10,769 bases of DNA. Origin: Tannerellaceae bacterium (GTDB taxonomy: Bacteria > Bacteroidota > Bacteroidia > Bacteroidales > Tannerellaceae). The translations under genes and the position numbers were made by a program. Shown piece by piece: positions 1 to 10,769 of this stretch. The stretch lies in the NCBI GenBank assembly GCA_031279915.1, contig JAITHO010000075.1, forward strand, positions 1 to 10,769, in the 5' to 3' direction. Positions within the stretch are counted from its first letter, which is position 1, and each line of letters begins with the position of its first letter. Under the pieces are notes generated by a model. It did not search any database, had not been told where the DNA came from, and worked only from the letters and a program-made list of their open reading frames with translations.

Positions 1-764
1 GAACCAGCTACGGCAACCGCGACGCGTGGGCCATCGGAATCACTCCAAAGTACGCCGTTGGAGTATGGGTGGGCAATGCATCAGGCGAGGGGCGACCGGG
101 AATGACCGGAGTTGGCTACGCCGCGCCACCTTTGTTCGATCTCTTCTCGCTGCTGCCGGGAAGCGAATGGTTTGACTTCCCCTTTGACGAAGCCGAAACG
201 GCAGCTGTTTGCCGGCACAGCGGATACAAAGCGTCGCAGCTTTGCGAAATCGTCGACACGGTACCTATCCCAGCTAGCGGCCTGAAATCATCCGTATGCC
301 CATTCCATCGCAGCGTGCATCTCTCGGCCGATCTCCGTTACCGTGTAAATACATCATGCGAGCCTGCGGCGAACATCGTTAGCCGATCATGGTTCGTACT
401 GCCTCCCGTACAAGCGTATTACTACCGCAATTATCACGCCGACTATCTCCCGCTTCCACCCTTCAGGGCCGACTGCGAACCCGATGCCCTGCCCACAATC
501 GATATCATCTATCCCGAACCATATTCCTCCCTCTATCTCCCAAAAGGATTCAGCGGCCAGCAAGAACGCTTCGTTTTTCGCGCCGCACACTCCCGTCCCG
601 ATGCAACGATCTACTGGCATGTTGACGACGAATACCTCGGAGAATCGCACGGCTCATTCCATCAGATAAGCTGCCGCCTGGCCGCCGGTAATCACAGCTT
701 GACGCTGGTTGACGATCGCGGTTTGCGAGTCAGCATCAAGTTTCAAGTTCGAGGCGCGGTTTGA
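1..764 (+). CDS. pbpC: Penicillin-binding protein 1C-like, C-terminal part (5' partial)
   Basis: The gene enters from the left edge; the reading frame starts at base 3 and ends at a TGA at 762-764, leaving 253 residues. The first two residues, T-S, followed by YGNRDAWAIGITPKYAVGVWVGNA, match the end of the KTGTS active-site motif and the strand after it in class A penicillin-binding proteins of the PBP1C type. The text GEGRPGMTGVGYAAPPLFD is also typical of PBP1C. The remaining roughly 180 residues correspond in place to the beta-rich C-terminal domain found in this family (penicillin-binding protein C, C-terminal). The full protein would be a membrane-anchored periplasmic transglycosylase/transpeptidase acting on peptidoglycan; the transglycosylase part and catalytic serine lie outside the window. 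The stop codon is followed within about 15 bases by a tandem repeat array. The family call is firm; the exact paralogue is less so. Confidence 0.9.
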   Translation, partial: TSYGNRDAWAIGITPKYAVGVWVGNASGEGRPGMTGVGYAAPPLFDLFSLLPGSEWFDFPFDEAETAAVCRHSGYKASQLCEIVDTVPIPASGLKSSVCPFHRSVHLSADLRYRVNTSCEPAANIVSRSWFVLPPVQAYYYRNYHADYLPLPPFRADCEPDALPTIDIIYPEPYSSLYLPKGFSGQQERFVFRAAHSRPDATIYWHVDDEYLGESHGSFHQISCRLAAGNHSLTLVDDRGLRVSIKFQVRGAV

Positions 765-792
765 AAAACGTTGGTCGTCGGAAAAAAAGATT

Positions 793-1081
793 GGAGCTTT
801 TGTCGTCGCAACAAAAGCTTCCTGGAAAAAATTGGAGGCTTTGTCGTCGCAACAAAAGCTTGCGAAAAAAAATTTGGAGGTTTTGACGTCGCGACAAAGT
901 CTTCCTGGAAAAATCTGGAGGTTTTGACGTCGCGACAAAGTCTCCCTGGAAAAATCTGGAGGTTTTGTCGTCGCGACAAAGTCTCCCTGGAAAAATCTGG
1001 AGGTTTTGACGTCGCGACAAAGTCTTCCTGGAAAAATCTGGAGGCTTTGTCGTCGCGACAAAAGCTTCCGGAAAAAAAATT
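793..1081. repeat. A-type units: seven copies, stem TTTTGTCG / CGACAAA
   Basis: Seven units of 41, 42, 41, 41, 41, 41 and 42 bases. Each carries a near-palindrome around TTTTGTCGTCGCGACAAAG; several copies have GACGTCG in the left arm, which costs one base pair. In the unit at 958 the arms GGAGGTTTTGTCG and CGACAAAGTCTCC can pair over 13 positions with two G-T wobbles around a TCG loop. The first two units have GTCGTCGCAACAAAAGC instead and pair over 8 bases (GCTTTTGT / ACAAAAGC in the first copy). The end copies are more diverged than the middle ones, as expected of an array that expands internally. Confidence 0.9.
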
Positions 1082-1163
1082 GGAGGTTTTGACGTCGCGT
1101 TGATTTGGCCGGTTGGTAATCTGGAGCGACCTACGGACAGTAAGTTGCCTCCCTGAACCGGTC
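1082..1163. repeat. B and C units, first copy (82 bp)
   Basis: Two 41-base units keep the GGAG landmark and register but have their own core sequences: GTTGATTTGGCCGGTTGG in the B unit and CGACCTACGGAC in the C unit. About 50 bases from the start of this block recur almost unchanged at 1492-1548, so the block acts as a boundary module on both sides of the D-type array. Confidence 0.85.
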
Positions 1164-1491
1164 GGAGAAAAAGCAGGACTGCTTTTCTCCCGGAAAAAAA
1201 ATTTGGAGGTAAAGCAGAGCTGCTTTTCTTCCAGAAAAAAAAATTGGAGAAAAAGCAGAGCTGCTTTTCCTTGCGGAAAATTATTTGGAGGAAAAGCAGA
1301 GCTGCTTTTCTTCCAGAAAAAAAAATTGGAGAAAAAGCAGAGCTGCTTTTCCTTGCGGAAAAAAATTTGGAGGAAAAGCAGGGCTGCTTTTCTTCCAGAA
1401 AAAAAATTTGGAGGAAAAGCAGAGCTGCTTTTCTTCCAGAAAAAAAATTTGGAGGAAAAGCAGGGCTGTATTTCCTTCCGGAAAAAAAATT
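1164..1491. repeat. D-type units: eight exact 41-bp copies, stem GAAAAGCAG / CTGCTTTTC
   Basis: Eight units, each exactly 41 bases (328 in total). The core GAAAAGCAGAGCTGCTTTTC is an inverted repeat of 9-base arms around AG. In the better copies (for example the unit at 1410) the pairing runs outward through GGAG with TTCC and T with A to about 16 positions, with wobbles, so the hairpin takes up nearly the whole unit except for a run of A. Units at 1205 and 1287 resemble each other, as do those at 1246 and 1328, so part of the array is an 82-base double unit. Read on the minus strand, each unit is a hairpin followed by a T run, like an intrinsic terminator. The linker and landmark match the A-type units although the stem does not. 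Confidence 0.92.
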
Positions 1492-1575
1492 GGAGGTTTT
1501 GACGTCGCGTTGATTTGGCCGGTTGGAAAATTGGAGCTACCTACGGACGTAGTTTGCCTTGCGGATTTTTTATTG
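1492..1575. repeat. B and C units, second copy
   Basis: This block repeats the one at 1082-1163, exactly 410 bases (ten units) downstream. The B unit is nearly identical through GACGTCGCGTTGATTTGGCC; the C unit keeps GGAG, CTACCTACGGAC and then drifts. The second copy contains a short inverted repeat CTACGGACGTAG at 1541-1552. Beyond about 1575 the register can be followed only weakly. Confidence 0.82.
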
Positions 1576-1835
1576 GAAGCCACGTTTGGCGGCGAATATC
1601 TTCGGTAATAGAAATTGCATCCCTCGGCGGCGTCAATGTGCTTGGAATGAAAGGGGGTTGAAGGTTGAAAGGCGTTTGGGGAGATGGGGGCGAAAATATT
1701 TGCCCCATGCAATGTCTCGTTCTTCAATAAAGCCTATTGCGGCAAAGGAGTTGCGCAAAAATTTTATCTTATATAAGTTTCGACTGCTACTATATTACTG
1801 CTGGTAGGGCACATTTTTTTATTTCAGGAATAACG
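1576..1835. other. Intergenic stretch without a recognisable gene
   Basis: I see no convincing gene here. It holds a G-rich plus-strand segment (G runs at 1653-1657, 1678-1681 and 1686-1690), a small inverted repeat GGGGC / GCCCC at 1687-1706 with an A/T-rich loop, and a 10-base palindrome CTTATATAAG at 1768-1777. No T run follows the inverted repeat, so it is not a classical terminator. The A/T-rich last 80 bases lead into the promoter. Confidence 0.6.
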
Positions 1836-1843
1836 TATCTTTG
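1836..1843 (+). promoter_or_regulatory. Bacteroidota -7 box (TATCTTTG) of the inositol operon
   Basis: The sequence TATCTTTG matches the Bacteroidota consensus TAnnTTTG exactly and lies 57 bases before the ATG of the inositol-phosphate synthase gene. The expected -33 TTTG is not clear; a T-rich stretch lies at about 1814-1824. The same octamer precedes dapB. Its position makes an upstream TTG start of the synthase implausible. Confidence 0.75.
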
Positions 1844-1900
1844 CGCCATTACAAGCAAAATAAGTATCAAAATCACAGTCATCAAATATCATACAGGATT

Positions 1901-3202
1901 ATGGCAAAAGTTGAAGTAAAAGAAGCCAAGGGAACGCTTGGCGTACTTATCGTTGGAGTAGGAGGAGCCGTATCCTCCACTTTTATTGCAGGTACATTAT
2001 CCGTTCGTAAAGGTATCGGACAGCCCATAGGATCGGTCACACAGCTGGCCACCATAAGGCTCGGCAAACGCAATGAGAATCGTTTCCCCAAAATTAAAGA
2101 CGTAGTTCCTCTCGCCGACTTAAACGACATCGTATTCGGCGGCTGGGATATATTTGAGGAAAACATCTACGCGGCCGCAATCCATGCCGAAGTTCTCAAG
2201 AAAGAAGATATAGACGTTGTAAAGGATGAATTGGAAGCCATCAGCCCCATGCCGGCAGTGTTCGACCGCGATTTCGTGAAGCGCTTGAACGGAACTTATA
2301 TGAAGCACGGCAAAAGCCGCTGGGACTTGACCGAACAATTACGCGAAGACATCAAGCGATTTAAAGCCGACAATGGCTGCGATCGGATCGTGGTAATGTG
2401 GGCCGCGAGCACGGAGATCTTCATCGCCCCCAGCTCCGAACACGACAGTCTGGCAGCCTTCGAGCAGGCGATGAAAGACGACTGCAAGGCGGCTATCTCC
2501 CCGAGCATGTGCTATGCATACGCCGCTCTGTCGGAAGGAGCGCCCTTCATCATGGGAGCTCCGAACCTCTGCGTTGACATTCCGGCAATGTGGGAGCTTG
2601 CCGAAAAAACTTGCACTCCTATATGCGGAAAAGATTACAAGACGGGGCAAACGCTTATCAAAACCGTTCTGGCTCCGATGCTCAAAACCCGAATGCTTGG
2701 GCTGGAAGGATGGTTCTCAACCAACATCCTCGGCAATCGCGACGGCGAAGTGCTCGACGATCCTGATTCATTCAAGACAAAGGAGGTGAGCAAACTGTCG
2801 GTGATCGACACAATCCTCCAGCCGGAGGTTTATCCCGAGCTCTACGGGAATATATACCACAAGGTTCGCATCAACTATTATCCTCCGCGCAAAGACAATA
2901 AGGAAGGTTGGGATAATATAGATATTATCGGATGGCTAAACTATCCGATGCAGTTGAAGGTCGACTTCTTGTGCCGCGATTCTATACTTGCGGCGCCGCT
3001 CTGCCTCGACTTGGTGCTGTTTGCCGATCTTGCTCTGCGTTGCGGATTCTGGGGAATACAGTCGTGGTTGTCGTTCTATTTCAAGAGCCCGATGCATGCG
3101 CCCGACAGAGTTCCGGAGCACGATCTGTTTATCCAGCATACTATCCTGAAAAACACGCTCCGCACTATCATTGGCGAGCCAACTCTGGATTATCTGGAGT
3201 GA
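1901..3202 (+). CDS. myo-Inositol-1-phosphate synthase
   Basis: This 433-residue protein is predicted to convert D-glucose 6-phosphate to 1L-myo-inositol 1-phosphate using bound NAD, in the cytoplasm. The Rossmann glycine motif VGVGGA is at residues 18-23. The catalytic-lysine region K-TGQT-LIK falls at residues 247-254, and the family motif NILGNRDG at 275-282 is followed by SFKTKEVSK. The C-terminal part (GWLNYPMQLKVDFLCRDSIL and onward) is typical of bacterial homologues. I chose the ATG at 1901 over an upstream TTG at 1841 because the latter lies on the -7 box and the family's usual N-terminus (short tail, then GxLGVLIVGVGGA) fits 1901. The nucleotidyltransferase gene begins one base after its stop, so the two are surely co-transcribed. 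Its product feeds the rest of the operon. Confidence 0.95.
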   Translation: MAKVEVKEAKGTLGVLIVGVGGAVSSTFIAGTLSVRKGIGQPIGSVTQLATIRLGKRNENRFPKIKDVVPLADLNDIVFGGWDIFEENIYAAAIHAEVLKKEDIDVVKDELEAISPMPAVFDRDFVKRLNGTYMKHGKSRWDLTEQLREDIKRFKADNGCDRIVVMWAASTEIFIAPSSEHDSLAAFEQAMKDDCKAAISPSMCYAYAALSEGAPFIMGAPNLCVDIPAMWELAEKTCTPICGKDYKTGQTLIKTVLAPMLKTRMLGLEGWFSTNILGNRDGEVLDDPDSFKTKEVSKLSVIDTILQPEVYPELYGNIYHKVRINYYPPRKDNKEGWDNIDIIGWLNYPMQLKVDFLCRDSILAAPLCLDLVLFADLALRCGFWGIQSWLSFYFKSPMHAPDRVPEHDLFIQHTILKNTLRTIIGEPTLDYLE

Positions 3203-3203
3203 G

Positions 3204-3917
3204 ATGGACTACGCCGTCATTGCAGCAGGCGAAGGATCGCGTCTGCTAAGTGAAGGCGTCGAACGCCCCAAGCCGCTGACGCTACTGAACGGGGTGGCGA
3301 TGATTGACCGCTTGATCCGAATCTTTCTTGATAACGAAGCCACTTCCGTTCATATAATTATTAATGAAGAGATGAGAATGGTGAGAGAACATCTGCAGAG
3401 AATGAAATTGCCGGTTCCGACGCACATCACGGTTAAGTCGACTCCAAGTTCGATGCATAGCTTTTACGAGCTAAGTCGGAATCTGACCTCCGAGAGCTTT
3501 TGCCTCACAACCGTAGATACAATATTTAGGGAGGATGAGTTCAAACGGTTCATGCACGACTTCCGCAACGAATCTGCCGACGGGCTCATGGCCGTGAGCG
3601 ACTTCATCGACGACGAGAAACCGCTCTACGTGAACGTTGACGACAACCTCCGAGTGAGTAGCTTCACCGACAAGCCTGAGAGCAACAGCCGCTACGTTTC
3701 CGGAGGAATATACGGACTGAAACGGCAAACAGCGATTCCGGTTCTGGAGCAGGCAATGCAAGAGCGACAGTACAGGATGAGGAACTTTCAGCGAAGCCTC
3801 ATTGCCGCCGGATTAATTATCAAAGCTTGGCCCTTCGCCAAAATAATCGACATTGACCACGCTGACGACATACAAAAAGCCGAACGCTTCCTATCCGCAG
3901 AGCTTGAATCGAACTAA
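3204..3917 (+). CDS. Sugar-phosphate-type nucleotidyltransferase, probably acting on inositol 1-phosphate
   Basis: The 237-residue protein opens with MDYAVIAAGEGSRL and PKPL (residues 22-25), the nucleotide-binding signature of NTP transferases (GxGxR then PKP). TTVDTIF around D105 fits the metal-binding aspartate strand. GGIYGLKR further on suits the substrate-side region. The ATG at 3204 is preferred because it lies one base after the synthase stop and starts directly at the first beta strand; an upstream ATG at 3171 would overlap the synthase. Position after an inositol-phosphate synthase and before a CDP-alcohol transferase suggests CTP:inositol-1-phosphate cytidylyltransferase activity, giving CDP-inositol. 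That substrate is inference from context; the fold call is firm. Choline- or sugar-phosphate nucleotidyltransferase activity cannot be excluded. Confidence 0.85.
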   Translation: MDYAVIAAGEGSRLLSEGVERPKPLTLLNGVAMIDRLIRIFLDNEATSVHIIINEEMRMVREHLQRMKLPVPTHITVKSTPSSMHSFYELSRNLTSESFCLTTVDTIFREDEFKRFMHDFRNESADGLMAVSDFIDDEKPLYVNVDDNLRVSSFTDKPESNSRYVSGGIYGLKRQTAIPVLEQAMQERQYRMRNFQRSLIAAGLIIKAWPFAKIIDIDHADDIQKAERFLSAELESN

Positions 3918-3938
3918 AGAATAAGTACATTAATAACT

Positions 3939-3975
3939 CAGCCGGGGAATTCAAGTAAAGACCGTTCCGCGGCTG
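3939..3975 (+). other. Inverted repeat in the gap inside the inositol operon
   Basis: The arms CAGCCGGGGAA (3939-3949) and TTCCGCGGCTG (3965-3975) pair over 11 bases with one mismatch around a 15-base loop. No T run follows, so it is not a standard intrinsic terminator. It sits in the only large gap of the operon (90 bp) and could tune downstream expression or mark an mRNA processing site. Its size, 37 bases, is close to one unit of the arrays elsewhere in the window. Confidence 0.55.
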
Positions 3976-4007
3976 ATTGGTCAAATAAAAAACGCATTGA
4001 TTATTTT

Positions 4008-4892
4008 ATGAATGAAATCACAATTGCCGGAATCCGGCGAGGGAGTCGCTTCTCTCCTAATCATATAGGCAACGATGCCGCTATATTCCAAACAACGGCG
4101 ATAGAACTCAGAAAGCTGGGATGCACGGTGAACGAATATCCTGAATCTGTACTCATCGAAGGCAAAGAAATCAGCGAACAGTATATTTTCAATATGGTTC
4201 GCGACAAACGCTCTGTGAGGAGGCTCCAGCAATATGAGAACTGCGGACGGAGGGTTGTTAACTCGGCCTACGGAATTGAAAATTGCACGCGAGAGAAGAT
4301 GACCCGTTTGCTGCTCGAAAATCAGATCCCGCATCCGAGAAGCATCATCGTAAATACCGACGCCGACCCTGATCGCTTGCTGCGAGAGCACAATCTGCAT
4401 AACTGCTGGATAAAGCGCGGAGATTTCCATGCCATCCACCGCGAGGACGTCACCTACGTTCGGAATCGAATCGAAGCCCAGAGCATTCTCGAAGAGTACG
4501 CCGTTCGCGGCATTAAGAATGCTGTGATCAACGAACATCTGGCCGGCGACCTCGTGAAATTCTACGGCGTGGCGCATACGGACTTCTTCTTCTGGTTCTA
4601 TCCCTCGGCTGAAACTCACAGCAAGTTTGGGCTCGAGCAAATTAACGGAACGGCGAAAGGCATCTCCTTCGACGAAGATTATCTGCAACGAATATGCAAC
4701 GAGGCTGCACATACGCTCAAAATCGAAATCTATGGCGGCGACTGCATAGTATCGGCCGAGGACGGGCAAATACGGATCATCGACTTCAACGACTGGCCCT
4801 CCTTTGCGCCATGCCGAAAGCAAGCAGCCGAGAAGATCGCTCAACGAATACACGCTCTTGTTACACAAGCCGAACGTTATGCAACAGTATAA
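4008..4892 (+). CDS. ATP-grasp-like protein of the inositol-lipid operon
   Basis: I do not recognise an experimentally assigned family. The 294-residue protein has the general look of an ATP-grasp enzyme of the RimK/glutathione-synthetase/inositol-phosphate-kinase type: an N-terminal alpha/beta region, a lysine in CWIKRGDF, an INEHLAGDLVKFYGV strand pair, YGGD at residues 242-245 and a metal-binding-like IIDFNDWPSF with D259, N261 and P264. The last motif resembles the DxN-xxP pattern of inositol trisphosphate 5/6-kinases. No signal peptide or membrane segment is seen, so it is cytoplasmic. It overlaps the following phosphatidyltransferase gene, which ties it to lipid headgroup synthesis. It may phosphorylate an inositol species or ligate an acid to an amine; both are inference. 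The ATG at 4008 begins directly with a beta strand and follows an A/T-rich leader. Confidence 0.7.
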   Translation: MNEITIAGIRRGSRFSPNHIGNDAAIFQTTAIELRKLGCTVNEYPESVLIEGKEISEQYIFNMVRDKRSVRRLQQYENCGRRVVNSAYGIENCTREKMTRLLLENQIPHPRSIIVNTDADPDRLLREHNLHNCWIKRGDFHAIHREDVTYVRNRIEAQSILEEYAVRGIKNAVINEHLAGDLVKFYGVAHTDFFFWFYPSAETHSKFGLEQINGTAKGISFDEDYLQRICNEAAHTLKIEIYGGDCIVSAEDGQIRIIDFNDWPSFAPCRKQAAEKIAQRIHALVTQAERYATV

Positions 4893-5796
4893 AAAGGCTG
4901 ACATGGAGGCTACGCTGAAGTCGTGGGATACGGAGGAGTTTATCGACATACATTTTTACCGGCCTATGGGATACCGATGGGCGCTATTTTTCCGGAAAAT
5001 CGGCATCACGCCGAACAGCGTAACCCTTTTTGCTATCATGCTGGGAATAGGGGCGGGGATTTGCTTCTACTTCCAAAACCTATATGTTAACATCGCCGGA
5101 ATATTGCTGCTGATATGGGCTAATACCTACGACAGCGCCGACGGACAGCTGGCGCGGATGACAGGCAAAATGTCGGCGCTCGGACGGATGCTCGACGGAC
5201 TATGCGGGGAACTTTGGTTCATAACCATCTACTTGGCCATCATCTTCAGGCTCATGCCCGACTGGGGATTCTATATATGGATACTCGCCGCAGCAGCCGG
5301 ATTTTGTCACTCCAAACAGGCGGCGATGGCGGATTACTATCGAAACCTGCACCTCCACTTCCTCAAAGGAAAGGCCGGTAGCGAATTTGAGAACTCCAGA
5401 ATGCTCAATGAGGCCTACCAACAAATGAGCTGGAAGCAGAATTTCTTCTACACTTTCGCATCCTACATGTATCTGAACTACACCATCGGGCAAGAAAAGC
5501 AATCGCCAAATCTCCAGCAAATGTTAAACGTATTGCGCGTAAACTACAAGAACATGGCCCCGGAATGGTTCAGAAACAGCTTCCGAACCAAAAGCTTGCC
5601 GCTGATGAAATATGCCAACATTCTATCCTTCAACACCCGCGCAATCGCGCTCTTCATCAGCATCGGAATCAATATGCCATGGCTATACTTCGTTTTCGAA
5701 CTCAGCGTCCTCAACGCTTTGATGATATATATGATCGTAACGCACGAGAAATTTTCGGCCGCATTTGCTCAACAACTTAAATCTGTCGCAGAATGA
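4879..5796 (+). CDS. CDP-alcohol phosphatidyltransferase family protein (inositol lipid headgroup transfer)
   Basis: This 305-residue integral membrane protein contains the family signature as D85-SA-DG-QL-AR, eight residues, G102-RML-D106. The fourth aspartate, expected at 110, is glycine, followed by E111. TPN at residues 44-46 and hydrophobic segments around 47-65, 68-83, 112-126 and 135-148, with more near the C-terminus, fit the family's bundle of membrane helices. A hydrophilic insert of about 100 residues lies before the last helices. It would transfer a phosphoalcohol between a CDP-activated molecule and an acceptor. With the neighbours, the product is probably phosphatidylinositol (phosphate) or a related inositol lipid. 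The ATG at 4879 overlaps the previous gene by 14 bases; the ATG at 4903, preceded by AAAAAGG, is an alternative giving 297 residues. Which side carries the CDP cannot be told from sequence. Confidence 0.88.
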   Translation: MQQYKKADMEATLKSWDTEEFIDIHFYRPMGYRWALFFRKIGITPNSVTLFAIMLGIGAGICFYFQNLYVNIAGILLLIWANTYDSADGQLARMTGKMSALGRMLDGLCGELWFITIYLAIIFRLMPDWGFYIWILAAAAGFCHSKQAAMADYYRNLHLHFLKGKAGSEFENSRMLNEAYQQMSWKQNFFYTFASYMYLNYTIGQEKQSPNLQQMLNVLRVNYKNMAPEWFRNSFRTKSLPLMKYANILSFNTRAIALFISIGINMPWLYFVFELSVLNALMIYMIVTHEKFSAAFAQQLKSVAE

Positions 5797-6506
5797 TTAA
5801 TACTGAACAAACAAAGACGCTCATACTCGACTACGGAGGCACGATCGATACCAACGGAGTACACTGGGCCGCCGTTATACGCATGGCCTACGAAGCTCTG
5901 AACATTGAGCTCGACGAGCAAAACTTTCGCGACGCTTATGTGCACGGCGAACGATGCCTCGCCACCCAACGCCTCGTCGAACCGAATCACAACTTCTGGC
6001 ACGTGCTCAGGCTAAAAGCCGAAGCCCAAACAAGCCTGCTCGTGGAGCGAAATCTGCTGCCGCCGGAGCAAATCTCGATAGCCAACAAAATTGCCGACTG
6101 GTGCTATGCTTATGCGCAAATGGGCGTCAATGCCGCACGGCCCGTTATCAAACAGCTTGCCGACACGCTGCCCATAGCCCTCGTCACTAACTTTTACGGC
6201 AACATAGCCACCGTGCTCGAAGATTTTCACCTGAAAAGCTTCTTCCCCCTCATCGTTGAATCTGCCACCGCAGGCGTTCGCAAGCCCGATCCGGCAATCT
6301 TCAGCCTGGCGATCAAGCTGGCCGGATGCCGTCCTGAAGAAGTTTGCGTTGTTGGCGACTCTTACGAGAAAGACATTGCTCCGGCACACTCGATCGGCTG
6401 TCAAACCATTTGGCTCCGGAAGCAAGGGTGGACAGAGCCAAGCTCCACAGCCACAGCCAGCCTGATAATCTCCGACTTCAGCGAGTTGGCCAACATCTGG
6501 GCCTAA
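5793..6506 (+). CDS. HAD-superfamily phosphatase
   Basis: The 237-residue protein starts on an ATGA overlap with the stop of the phosphatidyltransferase gene, so the two are translationally coupled. The four HAD motifs are present: nucleophile D13 in DYGGT, T132 in LVTNF, K164 in GVRKPDP, and GDSYEKD at 188-194. A helical cap lies between motifs I and II. The second aspartate of the usual DxD motif I is replaced by G15, as also happens in some active HAD phosphatases. In this context it may dephosphorylate an inositol phosphate or an inositol-phosphate lipid as the last pathway step; that is inference. No signal peptide is seen, so it is cytoplasmic. It is the last gene of the operon and is followed six bases later by a long inverted repeat. 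Confidence 0.85.
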   Translation: MINTEQTKTLILDYGGTIDTNGVHWAAVIRMAYEALNIELDEQNFRDAYVHGERCLATQRLVEPNHNFWHVLRLKAEAQTSLLVERNLLPPEQISIANKIADWCYAYAQMGVNAARPVIKQLADTLPIALVTNFYGNIATVLEDFHLKSFFPLIVESATAGVRKPDPAIFSLAIKLAGCRPEEVCVVGDSYEKDIAPAHSIGCQTIWLRKQGWTEPSSTATASLIISDFSELANIWA

Positions 6507-6511
6507 ATGCT

Positions 6512-6650
6512 AACGACAATAGCTCGCGGAAATTTTCCTGGAGCTATTGTCGTTGTACATTAGCTCGCGGAAATTAATTTGGGACTATTGTCATTGTACA
6601 ATGGGTCGCGAAGAAAAGTAGGGTCGTTGTCATTATACAATGGCTTGCGG
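6512..6650. repeat. Second 41-bp array, with a long hairpin at its start
   Basis: The motif (A/G)G(C/G)T(C/T)GCGG recurs at 6521, 6562, 6603 and 6642, steps of 41, 41 and 39. Each unit carries a palindrome around TTGTACAA, perfect over 12 bases as CATTGTACAATG at 6592-6603 and with drift at 6551-6562 and 6631-6642. At the start, AACGACAATAGCTC (6512-6525) pairs perfectly with GAGCTATTGTCGTT (6541-6554); the loop also holds GGAAA-T-TTTCC. The array begins six bases after the phosphatase stop and ends about 45 bases before the dapB promoter. No T run follows the hairpin, so a role as terminator is possible but not shown. The sequence is unrelated to the first array, the period is the same. Confidence 0.82.
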
Positions 6651-6695
6651 AGGGCTCCGGGCGGAGGCTCGGTCGCGGCAAGTGCGTACTTTAAT

Positions 6696-6703
6696 TATCT
6701 TTG
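6696..6703 (+). promoter_or_regulatory. Bacteroidota -7 box (TATCTTTG) of the dapB operon
   Basis: A second exact TAnnTTTG match, identical to the one before the inositol operon, lies 32 bases ahead of the dapB ATG. No clear -33 element is visible; the upstream stretch is G/C-rich with two similar GCGGAGG(G)CTC copies. Confidence 0.75.
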
Positions 6704-6735
6704 CAGACTAATGATTTAAACTTTTATAAACTTAT

Positions 6736-7425
6736 ATGAAGATCGCTTTAATCGGATACGGCAAAATGGGCCGGGCAATCGAGACAATCGCATTACAGAA
6801 AGGACACAGCATAACGGCAATTATCGACGTGGATAATCCGGAAGAATGGCAGTCGGAGGGCTTCAGGGCAGCTGACCTGGCCGTTGAGTTCAGCGCTCCC
6901 CAATCGGCAGTAGATAATTATTACAGATGCTTCGATGCGGGCAAGGCGCTGGTGTCGGGCACTACGGGATGGCTCAGCCGTTTGGAGGAGGTGAAGGAGA
7001 GATGCTTGAAGGGCAATCATACAATGTTTTACGCATCGAACTTTTCAGTGGGGGTGAACGTACTTTTTGCCGTTAACAGATACTTGGCCGAGCTGATGAG
7101 CCGCTTCCCGGCCTACGAGGCGAGGCTCCGCGAGGTGCATCATATTCACAAAAAAGATGCGCCGAGCGGCACTGCTCTCAGCCTCGCCGAGGGCATTCAA
7201 GCGGCTTTGCAAGGAAAGGCGCCCCTGATCGAATCGGTCAGAGAAGGCGAAGAGCCGGGTTTTCACGAAATAGTATGGGAGTCGGCAGCCGACCGGATTT
7301 GCCTCTCGCACGGAGCCAAAGGGCGCGAAGGATTTGCGGCCGGAGTAGTAGCCGCCGCCGAATTTACCGTCGGACGCAAGGGATTCCTCGGAATGGAGAA
7401 CATGCTTGGTTTTTCTATACATTAA
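6736..7425 (+). CDS. dapB: 4-Hydroxy-tetrahydrodipicolinate reductase
   Basis: The 229-residue cytoplasmic enzyme reduces hydroxy-tetrahydrodipicolinate with NAD(P)H in diaminopimelate/lysine synthesis, which supplies peptidoglycan. Seen: the Rossmann motif GYGKMGR at residues 7-13, VSGTTGW, ASNFSVGVN, and the family signature E133-VHHIHKKDAPSGTA containing the catalytic histidine pair H135-H136 and K139. It ends with KGFLGMENMLGF, as usual for the family. It is shorter than the E. coli enzyme (273 residues), mainly in the NAD-binding half and the region after the signature, but no key motif is missing. The ATG at 6736 follows the promoter and starts at the first beta strand. lepB follows after 13 bases. 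Confidence 0.96.
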   Translation: MKIALIGYGKMGRAIETIALQKGHSITAIIDVDNPEEWQSEGFRAADLAVEFSAPQSAVDNYYRCFDAGKALVSGTTGWLSRLEEVKERCLKGNHTMFYASNFSVGVNVLFAVNRYLAELMSRFPAYEARLREVHHIHKKDAPSGTALSLAEGIQAALQGKAPLIESVREGEEPGFHEIVWESAADRICLSHGAKGREGFAAGVVAAAEFTVGRKGFLGMENMLGFSIH

Positions 7426-7438
7426 TATATATACCATA

Positions 7439-8827
7439 ATGAAAGCAATATCTAAAGGAAAGTGGGTGAAGTTCGGCATCTGGGCTACGCTCTATGTGCT
7501 GTTTTGCTTGTGGATGCAAAACTTGTGGATGCTGTTTGGCTTGATTGTCATCGTCGATATATTTCTCACAAAAAAAGTGCCTTGGGGGAGATGGAAGGAG
7601 GCCAAAAATCCGAGCGTTCGCAAAGTATTGGAGTGGATTGACGACATATTGTTCGCACTGATCGCCGTTTATATTATCAATCTTTTTGTTTTCCAGAATT
7701 ATCAGATTCCGACCTCGTCGCTTGAGAAATCGCTGCTTGTTGGCGACTATCTTTTTGTTAGCAAATTGAGCTACGGGCCGCGCGTGCCGAATACTCCCAT
7801 CTCGTTTCCCTTGGTGCAGAATACTATGCCGGTGATAAATACAAAGTCGTACATTGAATGGCCGCGCTGGGGATACAGGCGCGTGGCCGGTTTTGGGAAG
7901 GTAAAGCGCAACGATATCGTTGTGTTCAACTTTCCGGCGGGCGATACGATAACTCTGAAGGTGCAAAATCCCGACTATTATTCTCTTCTGCAGCAATACG
8001 GACGCGAAACCATACTGCTTAACGAGGCCACCTTCGGCAAGGTGATTTATCGTCCGGTCGACAAGCGGGAGAACTACGTTAAGCGCTGCGTCGGGATGCC
8101 GGGAGATTCGCTAAAGGTGGAGAACAATCAGGTGTTTATCAACGGCGTTGCGGCCGAGAATCCGGAGGCTATGCAATTCAAATACTTCGTTGAAACCGAT
8201 GGCTCATTCATCACTCCCGAACAGTTCAAGCAGATGCAAATAAGCAAAGAGGATCAAAACATGGCGGCGCAGGATTTGGTGGCCTATCTCGGCTTTGAAA
8301 CTGATGCTTCGGGGCGATATAATCCCGTTTATCATCTGCCGCTCACAAAAAAATCATTGAAGTATCTGCAAAACCTTTCAACCATTAGGAATATAAGGAT
8401 AGAACCCGACGGACTGTTTGGGGGATCAACATATCCGCTTGACTACGCCACAGGATGGACGCGCGACAACTACGGCCCGATATGGATCCCCGCCAAAGGC
8501 TCAACAATCGAACTTACTCAGCGCAACCTTGCGATCTACCGTCGCTGCATCCACAATTATGAGAACAACAGCCTGGAAGTAACTCCCGAAGGCAAAATCT
8601 TAATCAACGGAGAGGAGCGCACGAGCTACACGTTCCGCTACGATTACTACTTCATGATGGGCGATAACCGACACAACAGCGCCGACAGCCGCTCGTGGGG
8701 ATTCGTGCCGGAAGATCATATCGTTGGCAAACCTATCTTGATATGGCTGTCGCTCGACAAAGATCGCGGCCTGTTCAGCGGCGGCATACGCTGGAACCGT
8801 ATCTTCCGCATGGTACATTCCCGATAA
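7439..8827 (+). CDS. lepB: Signal peptidase I (long Bacteroidales type)
   Basis: This 462-residue inner-membrane protease removes signal peptides from exported proteins. Hydrophobic segments lie at about residues 12-43 and 68-86. The serine box reads IPTSSLEKSLLVGD with nucleophile S94, the lysine box YVKRCVGMPGD with general base K215, and box E reads GDNRHNSADSRSWGFVP at 408-422. It is longer than E. coli LepB (324 residues) because of a roughly 190-residue region between the lysine box and box E, which I take to be normal in Bacteroidales. The ATG at 7439, 13 bases after the dapB stop, is chosen over an in-frame start at 7406, which would lie inside dapB and add only ten residues. All catalytic parts are intact, so this is the active copy of the pair. 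Confidence 0.95.
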   Translation: MKAISKGKWVKFGIWATLYVLFCLWMQNLWMLFGLIVIVDIFLTKKVPWGRWKEAKNPSVRKVLEWIDDILFALIAVYIINLFVFQNYQIPTSSLEKSLLVGDYLFVSKLSYGPRVPNTPISFPLVQNTMPVINTKSYIEWPRWGYRRVAGFGKVKRNDIVVFNFPAGDTITLKVQNPDYYSLLQQYGRETILLNEATFGKVIYRPVDKRENYVKRCVGMPGDSLKVENNQVFINGVAAENPEAMQFKYFVETDGSFITPEQFKQMQISKEDQNMAAQDLVAYLGFETDASGRYNPVYHLPLTKKSLKYLQNLSTIRNIRIEPDGLFGGSTYPLDYATGWTRDNYGPIWIPAKGSTIELTQRNLAIYRRCIHNYENNSLEVTPEGKILINGEERTSYTFRYDYYFMMGDNRHNSADSRSWGFVPEDHIVGKPILIWLSLDKDRGLFSGGIRWNRIFRMVHSR

Positions 8828-8841
8828 CAGATTCCCGATAA
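8817..8841. repeat. Small direct duplication across the lepB stop
   Basis: ATTCCCGATAA occurs at 8817-8827 and again at 8831-8841, 14 bases apart. The first copy includes the lepB stop codon, the second runs up to the next start codon. It probably arose by slippage and forms the short spacer between the two genes. Confidence 0.6.
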
Positions 8842-8842
8842 T

Positions 8843-9712
8843 ATGCGAAGAGCGAAAATGCGTGCAAAACCGCAACAAGCCCTGAGTTTGGCGCTGACGG
8901 TTGTTGGCCTAGTCATAGCAGTAGTTTGCGTGCGCACGTTCATTGTCGCCTCCTATCGCATATCCACTTCGGCAATGGAAACATCTCTGATGGCAGGCGA
9001 CTACGTGTTGGTTAACAAGATCGGCGCAAGAAGTTCGCTCAAGCGCAACGACGTCTTCCTCTTCAAGAGCCCCCTCATCAGCGACCGCGAGGATTCGCCG
9101 CTGATCGTAAGCCGCTGCATTGCCCTGCCGGGCGATACCATAGAAGTGAGCAATAAGGGCTACAAAGTGAACGGCGTGCATTATCCGCTTTCGCCAACGG
9201 CTCTGTCGTACTACACATTCTCGTCAGGCATAGAAAACCATTTCCTCAGCGCTCTCCGACGATTGAAGATCAGCGTGCGCGATTTAACTCGTCGGGGAGC
9301 CTCCTTCAACATACGACTAACGCCTTTCGAGGAATATCAGATACGCGAAGAACTAAGCTCCGACATGAACCGAGCCTTCCTCGCCTCCAACACGCAGGCA
9401 TACACGATAACCGTTCCCTTCGAAGGCCTCAATTACACGATAACCGAAGAAATCCTGACCGCTTACAGCGAAGCAATCCTAATCGAAGCCGGCTCCGAAG
9501 CACTAATCCGAAACCATAAACTCTACATACAGAATAAAGAACAAACAAGCTTCCGCTTCAGCAATAACTACTACTGGGCGCTGTCAGATCACATCGACGA
9601 AGCCGTCGACTCCCGTCATCTCGGTTTCATACCAGCCAACAATATCGTTGGCAAAGTCTTCTTCTGCTGGTTCAGCGCCAGCCCAAGTCGACGGCTCAAA
9701 AGCATCAAATGA
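8843..9712 (+). CDS. Signal peptidase I-like paralogue lacking the catalytic dyad
   Basis: The 289-residue protein has one N-terminal membrane segment (about residues 14-36) and the outline of signal peptidase I: RISTSAMETSLMAGDYVLVNK, IVSRCIALPGDTIEV, and YYWALSDHIDEAVDSRHLGF. Against the boxes of the upstream lepB, the nucleophile position before M45 is A44, the lysine position is S90 (codon AGC), GDN is SDH at 248-250, and the serine of box E is A254. The gene is otherwise open and overlaps the next gene by four bases, so it is not a decaying pseudogene. From memory, second copies in Bacteroides also carry an SR in place of KR, so the loss may be general for the paralogue. A helper, substrate-binding or regulatory role for secretion is possible; S43 next to A44 leaves a slim chance of activity. 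Confidence 0.88.
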   Translation: MRRAKMRAKPQQALSLALTVVGLVIAVVCVRTFIVASYRISTSAMETSLMAGDYVLVNKIGARSSLKRNDVFLFKSPLISDREDSPLIVSRCIALPGDTIEVSNKGYKVNGVHYPLSPTALSYYTFSSGIENHFLSALRRLKISVRDLTRRGASFNIRLTPFEEYQIREELSSDMNRAFLASNTQAYTITVPFEGLNYTITEEILTAYSEAILIEAGSEALIRNHKLYIQNKEQTSFRFSNNYYWALSDHIDEAVDSRHLGFIPANNIVGKVFFCWFSASPSRRLKSIK

Positions 9713-10365
9713 GAATGCCAACCGCCGCAGTTTATCTATCCACCGCCTATCTGGGGCCCATCCAATACTATTGCAAACTATACCATTACGGTTCGGCCAT
9801 GATCGAAGTCTTCGAGCGTTATCCGAAACAAACCTACCGCAACCGCTGCATCATTGCCGGCGCCAACGGACCGCTCAGCCTCTCCGTCCCCGTCGAGAAA
9901 TCCGAAAACGCTAAGAGCTACACGCGCGACATCCGCATATCCAATCACGGCAACTGGAGGCGCCAGCATCGCCAGGCTCTCCTCTCAGCCTACAATATGA
10001 GCCCCTTCTTCGAATATTATGCCGACGATTTCATGCCACTCTATGAACAGCCCTTCAACTTTCTGATAGACTTCAACGACGCCCTTTGCCGCCTCGCATG
10101 CAATCTGCTCGACCTTAATCCGAGCATACAGCATACAACGAAGTACGTGGCAGATGCGCCAAACGACTTCCGCAACATCATACATCCCCGACATCCACAG
10201 CCGGACGCAACCTTCCGCCCCGTAACCTACTACCAAGTATTTTCCCAACGCCTCGGCTTCCTTCCCAACCTAAGCATAGTCGACTTGCTGTTCAACACCG
10301 GGCCTGAAGGGCTGATTGTGTTGCGAGATTCGTGTTGCGAGCATGCTTTAGCGCAAAACAATTAG
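9709..10365 (+). CDS. WbqC family protein
   Basis: The 218-residue protein opens with AVYLSTAYLGPIQYYCKLYHYG and has NRCIIAGANGPLSLSVPVEK, the region ISNHGNWRRQHRQALLSAY, and a late SIVDLLFNTGPEG, which I recognise as the WbqC-like family often found after lepB in Bacteroidales. No signal peptide or membrane segment is visible. The family has been tied to O-antigen or glycan loci, but no reaction is certain. The start ATGAGAATG overlaps the stop of the preceding gene by four bases (ATGA); an alternative ATG is at 9715. It is the last gene of the dapB operon in the window. Confidence 0.87.
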   Translation: MRMPTAAVYLSTAYLGPIQYYCKLYHYGSAMIEVFERYPKQTYRNRCIIAGANGPLSLSVPVEKSENAKSYTRDIRISNHGNWRRQHRQALLSAYNMSPFFEYYADDFMPLYEQPFNFLIDFNDALCRLACNLLDLNPSIQHTTKYVADAPNDFRNIIHPRHPQPDATFRPVTYYQVFSQRLGFLPNLSIVDLLFNTGPEGLIVLRDSCCEHALAQNN

Positions 10366-10525
10366 GAGGCAATTTTGTTTCTCGGAAACCTTTGCCTACA
10401 AACCTGCAGACCGTTTTTTGCGCTCTTGAACCTTCGGCATCAAGCATTCGAAGCGGCAGCCCAGAACATTCGAGAGCTTCGCGAGCGTGGATGAAATCAG
10501 ATGGCGCTAATTTGCCGTAGCCTTG
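10366..10525. other. Gene-free spacer before the third array
   Basis: I see no gene, promoter or clear terminator in these 160 bases. A possible 6-base stem AGGCAA / TTGCCT starts just after the WbqC stop. A stretch near 10420 (GCTCTTGAACC, then GGCATCA) may be a shortened relative of the third array's unit, but this is weak. Confidence 0.45.
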
Positions 10526-10708
10526 GCTCTCAATAAATATTGAAACCGCCATCACCCCCAGGGGTTAGCTCTCAATAAATATTGAAACGGCCATCACCCC
10601 CAAGTGGAGCTCTCCATAAATATTGAAACTGCCATCACCCCCAAGGAAGAGCTCTCAATAAATATTGAAACCGCCATCACCCCCAGGGGGAGCTCTCAAT
10701 AAATATTG
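10526..10708. repeat. Third array: five units of 41-42 bp with TCAATA / TATTGA stem
   Basis: GCTCTC(A/C)ATAAATATTGAA recurs at 10526, 10568, 10609, 10651 and 10692, steps of 42, 41, 42 and 41; the fifth unit is cut off after the palindrome. Each unit holds TCAATA-AA-TATTGA (one change in the third copy), then GCCATCACCCCC and a short linker, often starting AGGGG. The G run before a palindrome can pair with the C run after it, so most of a unit can form one interrupted stem. The array lies 160 bases downstream of the WbqC stop. The sequence is unrelated to the other arrays while the period is the same. Confidence 0.9.
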
Positions 10709-10769
10709 AACTATACAATTCTAACAATTTTGAGGCTCCGAAGGCTATTGAATCCTCCAGTAAGAGCTG
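10709..10769. other. Window end, no feature recognised
   Basis: The last 61 bases are A/T-rich at first and contain no start of a gene, promoter box or repeat unit that I can support. Confidence 0.4.

Follow-up and report, generated by a model that had tools for sequence, protein, structure and literature searches.

Eukaryotic satellite DNA, bacterial minisatellites, toxin–antitoxin repeats, repetitive extragenic palindromes and CRISPR arrays each share features with the element described here, a class of intergenic tandem arrays with a unit of 41–42 bp. It was noticed in a stretch of 10,769 nucleotides from a Tannerellaceae bacterium (assembly GCA_031279915.1, contig JAITHO010000075.1, positions 1 to 10,769), called the window below, and was followed through the genome to which the window belongs (the home genome) and its relatives. 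Eukaryotic satellites are tandem, noncoding, locally homogenised and exchange units within a pool; their sequence turns over between sister species while the unit stays near a physical length. The present arrays are likewise tandem, noncoding and locally homogenised, and in five gaps mapped by both flanks the unit length is kept while the sequence turns over. Unlike eukaryotic satellites they are bacterial and short, they occupy many loci that mostly have a family of their own, and there is no nucleosome to set their length.

Bacterial variable number tandem repeats (VNTRs), the minisatellites of multiple-locus VNTR analysis (MLVA), are also intergenic tandem arrays that grow by slippage; VNTR periods are not known to us to converge on a single length among unrelated sequences within one genome and one order. 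The ToxI repeats of type III toxin–antitoxin systems are structured tandem repeats of about 34–48 nt, but each of them is a lone locus next to a toxin gene and works as RNA, whereas the present arrays were found in 33 of 121 sampled gaps of the home genome, without significant strand preference. Repetitive extragenic palindromic (REP) elements, bacterial interspersed mosaic elements (BIMEs) and REP doublets forming hairpins (REPINs) are intergenic, palindromic and sometimes tandem, as are the arrays. In contrast to these elements the arrays have no common family or tag, and no Y1 transposase was found in the home assembly, which is 60.75% complete. A likeness to CRISPR lies in the first array of the window, which combines a repeat of fixed length with a variable segment (a shared linker and a changing core). 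Unlike in CRISPR, whole units repeat, the cores are palindromic and recur within the array, and many gaps are occupied. Among the ten scanned genes of the window no cas gene was named, although no search aimed at cas genes was made. Listings from searches of the open-licence literature showed no account of period-defined arrays in Bacteroidales. A Porphyromonas gingivalis genome paper is reported to mention direct repeats of 22 and 41 bp.

We tentatively favour the view, at somewhat below an even chance, that the arrays are intergenic satellites whose length is kept while their sequence is replaced, and that a putative Bacteroidales DNA-binding factor reads their length and palindromic shape.

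Unit length, sequence families and placement

The home-genome sample comprised 538,345 bp on 61 contigs, the window included (26% of the genome; the assembly has 2.09 Mb in 229 contigs, is 60.75% complete, and contains the window as contig C228). Arrays were called with Tandem Repeats Finder (TRF), which favours regular arrays, and the period was tested a second time by a lag scan run without TRF, in which one region contributes one count at every lag, also when shuffled. Among the 76 TRF arrays with a period of at least 25 bp, 69 fall at 40–42 bp, with 4 at 40, 43 at 41 and 22 at 42; the other seven have periods of 32, 45, 45, 63, 81, 95 and 126 bp. A second class consists of 16 arrays at 21–23 bp. 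The lag scan gave 46 regions at lag 41 and 31 at lag 42 out of 215, with about one region at each nearby lag. Local lags within 62 arrays were 39 (7 times), 40 (31), 41 (530) and 42 (308), and none of 36–38 or 43–47 occurred in these arrays.

Grouping of the 69 arrays at three thresholds, each beyond the highest value among 3,000 shuffles, gave 51, 54 or 60 sequence families. No sequence tag or family is common to all of them and shared k-mers cover only part of the arrays; one is CGGAAAA, present in 11 of the 69 compared with 0.7 expected from other intergenic 41-mers. A preliminary description of the window had proposed, from three gaps, one period shared by unrelated unit sequences. The sharp 41–42 bp peak with its many families bears this out in the sampled 26% by both TRF and the lag scan, but the sequences are not wholly unrelated, in view of CGGAAAA and of a linker box shared by the cores of the first window array. 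Home arrays have 2–14 copies, and few look fresh (4 of 69 with at most 2.5 copies and at least 93% matches). As separate observations, a 126 bp unit (3 × 42) occurs at L185:11080-11319 and L130:733-1091 with 1.9 and 2.8 copies, and its consensus (GCGGCAAAATGCTCAT..GCTTTTGCC core) is by eye alike in sister and home species, that is, conserved in sequence, unlike the 41–42 bp arrays. In another genome of the same genus, five adjoining 42 bp arrays with five different units lie within about 900 bp (L023:4995-5910).

The comparison sets for TRF were 331 kb of the same genus and 80 named Bacteroidales loci (1,284 kb); these overlap (e.g. L011/L185, L023/L173, L014/L178), and their counts are not summed. 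Arrays of 40–43 bp numbered 13 in the former and 20, on 11 of the 80 loci, in the latter, and the 41–42 bp class is most frequent in Tannerellaceae. Single 41 bp arrays occur in L022, L024, L041 and L068 (Tannerella forsythia, Parabacteroides and Prevotellaceae records). Since two of these records bear the titles of strains, Parabacteroides distasonis An897 (L024) and Tannerella forsythia OH1426 (L022), the arrays are not an artefact of binning; both could serve as laboratory models. TRF found no 40–43 bp array in two outgroup samples of 400 kb each, one from other orders of the class and the other from other classes of the phylum, nor in 50 kb of Escherichia coli, and the lag scan of the two outgroup sets gave a single region at each of lags 40 and 42. 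The absence by TRF from 800 kb of outgroup DNA suggests that the putative factor is lineage-specific. In Bacteroidales outside Tannerellaceae the main lag peak is at 22 bp (of 265 regions, 16 have lag 22 and 6 have lag 21), and 12 of 47 TRF arrays of 20–23 bp in the named set are coding. Short arrays of the other orders show a broad spread without a clear peak, with 7 at 15–19 bp and 3 at 24–39 bp.

None of the 69 home arrays of 40–43 bp is coding by open reading frame (ORF) and codon score, the measure used throughout the Bacteroidales sets because 41–42 bp arrays themselves create spurious frames. Genes were called with a custom caller that overlooked some, for example the window frame 4008-4892. 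For the 41 home arrays with both flanking genes called, the flanks are oriented ++ in 13 cases, −− in 9, −+ (divergent) in 15 and +− (convergent) in 4, and the remaining 28 lack one called flank; the corresponding numbers for all 121 home gaps above 100 bp are 42, 30, 29 and 20. The preliminary description placed an array in every operon-boundary gap, just 3' of a plus-strand operon. Arrays were present in 33 of the 121 internal gaps of at least 100 bp, and the 3' position applies to the three window gaps, not to the genome; with 15 of 41 arrays between divergent genes, placement at gene or operon ends was rejected as a general rule. The arrays seem to break assemblies, 28 of the 69 lying within 150 bp of a contig end.

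Persistence and possible exchange in a sister species

The sister species (G136, 329 kb examined) is 82% identical to the home species in DapB and 92% in inositol synthase, and carries 38 arrays of 40–42 bp. Its stretches L232-L237, L252-L256 and L185 were picked by their match to home contigs or to dapB and not by their arrays, and L238-L251 by contig number. For 27 gaps that could be mapped by both flanks, the sister has an array in all five gaps that hold one in the home genome and in 1 of 22 that do not (Fisher p = 7e-5). Restriction to home gaps of at least 150 bp gave 5/5 versus 0/8, and alternative ortholog mappings gave 5/5 versus 1/16 in 21 gaps (p = 3e-4) and 4/4 versus 0/6 in 10 gaps (p = 0.005). 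The single gap with an array in the sister only (L125:9589-9719 versus L232:11039-11947) has both flanks aligned, and no clean empty site was seen.

Little of the sequence has survived in these positions. Local alignment scores of orthologous units in the five array gaps were not above shuffles (p 0.24–0.57). For nine orthologous unit pairs the best circular identity was 0.42–0.63, where 400 random pairs averaged 0.44 (p = 4e-4). Three of these pairs, those of window arrays 1 and 3 and of L119:1493, are anchored by one flank only, and the PbpC gene on the other side of window array 1 has no match in L185. Gap identities from gap-tolerant alignment were not used, the shuffled null already being 0.74. 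The arrays thus look inherited in place with their sequence almost gone. By eye, the home 23 bp arrays at L133:14185-14508 lie opposite 23 bp arrays that end both sister matches (L252 and L253), and the 42 bp array at L119:1493 faces one of 42 bp at L256:1487; the period class seems to follow the locus. L185 has a 40 bp array in the gap before inositol synthase and 42/84 bp arrays in the gap after wbqC. In the dapB gap home and sister units share the linker GCGGAAA..TTTGG and differ in their palindromes. A survey of this gap over the named and same-genus loci was affected by upstream miscalls, which made many gaps 50–130 bp long, and absences in it were not used.

Other likenesses connect different loci. 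The home array at L125:13835-14072 matches eight other sister contigs at 68–80%, while the orthologous gap holds another unit, a pattern that fits exchange in a common unit pool. The 40 bp array at L133:7678 finds a 74% match in G136:C87, at a place away from its flanks. Loci thus have units in common, besides those inherited in place, although part of this likeness may come from the A/T-tract linker. Sequence is conserved in some of the 22 bp families, as in the palindromic 22 bp array at L102:768-880 (AAAATTCCTATAGGAATTTTTT), which has copies 81% and 76% identical in two sister contigs. Beside a 41 bp array, about 250 bp at L119:10490-10740 match six sister places at 68–72%, three of them over the full length.

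The three window arrays and their genes

TRF reports period 41 in the window at 785-1099, 1164-1496 and 6516-6610 and period 42 at 10526-10710; whole units repeat, with matches of 79–89%. All three arrays lie 3' of plus-strand genes. Array 1 (785..1590), flanked by a PbpC-type gene and that for inositol-phosphate synthase, has 20 GGAG/GGAA landmarks at 793, 834, 876 ... 1533 and 1575. These are the in-register ones among 36 pattern matches and agree with the unit print-out. Their 19 steps, 16 of 41 bp and 3 of 42, agree with the 41–42 bp counted by hand over 793-1575 in the preliminary description. The landmarks keep one register throughout, and the two TRF arrays of this gap are therefore one array. 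It contains three types of palindromic core. Type A (TTTTGTCG-TCG-CGACAAAA and variants) occupies 785..1099 with 7.6 copies at period 41. Type B (CGACCTACGGAC...) at 1113..1163 shares linker and register with the rest of the array and has a similar unit again at 1523-1563, and type C (AAAAGCAGAGCTGCTTTT, linker AGAAAAAAAATTTGG) fills 1164..1496 with 8.1 copies at period 41. The cores thus run from A to B to C and then to A-like and B-like units while the step stays at 41–42 bp, and the linker (an A-tract and TTTGGAG) is largely kept across them. The array holds 18 A- or T-runs of 5–9 bases, yet its step barely shifts.

Array 2 (6516..6650) lies between the HAD phosphatase gene and dapB; the TRF part (6516-6610) is followed by decayed units with landmarks at 6606 and 6645. 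With these two and the earlier landmarks at 6523 and 6564 the steps are 41, 42 and 39, which leaves the earlier count of 41/41/39 over 6521-6642 right to about one base. Array 3 (10526..10710), after wbqC, consists of TCAATAAATATTGA and CCCCCAAGGGG units with steps of 42/41/42/41, exactly as first counted, and its unit family recurs at L123:3802-3984.

Domain and family searches identified the window genes as the C-terminus of PbpC, inositol-3-phosphate synthase, a nucleotidyltransferase, a CDP-alcohol phosphatidyltransferase, a HAD phosphatase, DapB, two signal peptidases and WbqC, the last with its best named match in a contig (JAITGS010000052) of a Tannerellaceae metagenome-assembled genome, isolate Pc512_bin25. 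Isolate codes of this kind denote termite-gut bins. Positions 1901-6506, from inositol-3-phosphate synthase through the nucleotidyltransferase and CDP-alcohol phosphatidyltransferase to the HAD phosphatase, form a cluster of the inositol-lipid type. The frame 4008-4892 within it had weak matches to RimK/MptN-type ligase models only.

Palindromic shape and possible explanations

Palindromy, folding and stem variation were measured in 81 arrays from the home, same-genus and named sets, a few of which are present twice. The best half-symmetry of the units was 0.80, compared with 0.68 in shuffles (p = 2e-17), in line with the inverted repeats first described for the window; the 95% level of the null was exceeded by 38 of 69 arrays in the home genome, 22 of 38 in the sister and 10 of 20 in the named Bacteroidales set. 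A second dyad exactly half a period off was present in 12 of the 81 arrays, compared with 0.5% of shuffles. Folded as tandem units, 49 arrays gave a single hairpin in each unit, 28 gave two and 4 an intermediate number (the script did not report the loading of DNA energies). Stem columns vary less than non-stem columns (6.1% versus 8.5%; lower in 54 of 81 arrays, p = 6e-4). AA/TT tracts peak at 13.8 bp, the third harmonic of the unit (p = 4e-8), and not at 10.4 bp, on which a curved-DNA reading was rejected; purines are in excess at the second, third and fourth harmonics.

Neighbouring units resemble each other more (0.82 identity) than units at least three apart (0.67; 31 arrays), which fits local duplication. 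Indels per substitution amount to 0.091 in 60 home arrays (107:1,180), compared with 0.182 in 14 alignable gaps without arrays (201:1,102). Cores are replaced as whole palindromes at constant length, as in window array 1 and in a sister array that combines two cores at a constant 42 bp, and this fits exchange between arrays, hairpin-templated copying or selection for palindromy. The near-empty lags around 41–42, the lower indel share and the absence from outgroups point to a lineage-specific length constraint. The preliminary description had likewise proceeded from one period and differing sequences to a shared constraint. That step is supported by the period peak and its 51–60 families, whereas two of the causes it named are not supported. 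A protein binding at four helical turns gains no specific backing from A/T tracts that lack 10.4 bp phasing, though purines are phased, or from a 22–23 bp class that is not half of 41.3. An RNA structure is not supported in view of folding that is about equal on the two strands and of nearly equal numbers of G–U and A–C changes in stems. A process that measures length, or a protein that reads it, may still account for the period.

Several explanations can be considered for such a constraint or its semblance. If the arrays were transcribed, their hairpins could act as terminators, 3'-end stabilisers or RNA decoys, in accordance with the position of all three window arrays after plus-strand genes and, for 26 of the 34 arrays flanked by genes of the same direction, with a raw RNA folding energy lower on the sense strand than on the other. 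However, this excess is not significant with composition controlled by a shuffled-unit null (p = 0.11–0.22), and the raw strand difference is mostly composition. Mean folding z-scores of the two strands were −1.86 and −1.75, and sense-strand stem changes in 32 arrays comprised 93 G–U and 108 A–C. The palindromes appear to be a feature of the DNA, their equality on both strands speaking against an RNA role. With 15 of 41 arrays between divergent and 4 between convergent genes, and no Rfam match at the gathering threshold in the window, the only part scanned, we consider transcribed hairpins improbable. Far less probable still are REP/BIME-type elements spread by a REP-associated tyrosine transposase (RAYT, of the Y1 type). 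Short palindromes clustered between genes are the form REP elements take (PMC3733652). However, REPs are sequence families, whereas 51–60 families occur here in a quarter of a genome. In addition, Y1_Tnp (PF01797) had 0 matches in the 60.75% complete home assembly and was matched in 3 of 13 same-genus genomes searched, leaving 10, the home genome among them, without a match. Only slightly more credible than RNA hairpins, and still improbable, is the option that the arrays are old and neutral, that substitutions are saturated, and that rarer indels left an inherited period nearly intact without any ruler. Common descent would account for the faint residual likeness of units and their persistence in the same gaps, and homogenisation alone can alter sequence faster than length. 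Yet a free random walk would spread the period, while no home array falls at 33–39 bp and two, both of 45 bp, at 43–62 bp; moreover, palindromy should decay under saturation but is on average clear in both species.

The strongest competitor, which we nevertheless regard as unlikely, is a functionless mutational ruler. Here hairpin slippage would proceed in steps of 41–42 (or 22–23) nt set by the geometry of replication or repair, and hairpin-templated switching would rewrite the sequence and keep the palindromes. Such a process would leave adjacent units most alike and would change cores as whole palindromes in a conserved frame, as is seen. By eye the loop orientation seems flipped in some sister units of the dapB gap, and compensatory stem changes reach about three times the chance expectation. 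Against it, replication enzymes are widespread, yet 800 kb of other orders and classes yielded no 40–43 bp array by TRF. Fresh arrays are also few, and array positions persist between species. A putative factor that reads DNA structure at a fixed spacing is ranked above a purely mutational ruler, with the reserve due to a proposal that falls short of even chances.

Some observations weigh against the satellite interpretation with its putative factor. Unit likeness was counted without gaps, so that register slips lower the values of distant pairs. The indel test compares change within arrays with change between species, some of the gaps may be uncalled genes, and the preference of TRF for regular arrays affects it. 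The ortholog test comes down to five array gaps on three sister stretches. Palindromy is not clear by the half-symmetry test in 31 of 69 home arrays, and folding is no better than the shuffle mean in 16 of 81. The difference between stem and non-stem columns is modest, with an approximate non-stem denominator. Compensatory changes are few (25 of 5,752 cells versus 7.3 expected), in a count that is weak because a single event may have spread to several units by copying. The 20–23 bp class is less lineage-bound, with five noncoding arrays in 400 kb of other orders, and 22–23 and 41–42 bp are not related by the simple multiple that one spacing protein would predict. Finally, the long persistence of the arrays could be neutral.

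In the satellite interpretation, replication slippage or unequal exchange would add and remove units, which would also be swapped between arrays. The palindromes would be held by selection, perhaps also by hairpin-templated copying, and units of other lengths would be purged as being out of step with the putative factor. A wider proposal, to which we give a little less credence, is that of a length-coded DNA layer in Bacteroidales genomes, conceived by analogy with nucleosome-phased satellites. Its arrays would be intergenic and defined by unit length (41–42 or 22–23 bp) and palindromic shape, not by sequence, would stay in gaps fixed between species, and would be read by a putative, hitherto undescribed spacing-measuring factor.

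Because repeats are normally sorted by sequence, tools that rely on sequence easily overlook a class defined by length alone. Should a protein impose the constraint, a major order of gut bacteria would possess a DNA factor that reads spacing; should the constraint be mutational, replication would contain a ruler by which a set length is copied whatever the sequence.

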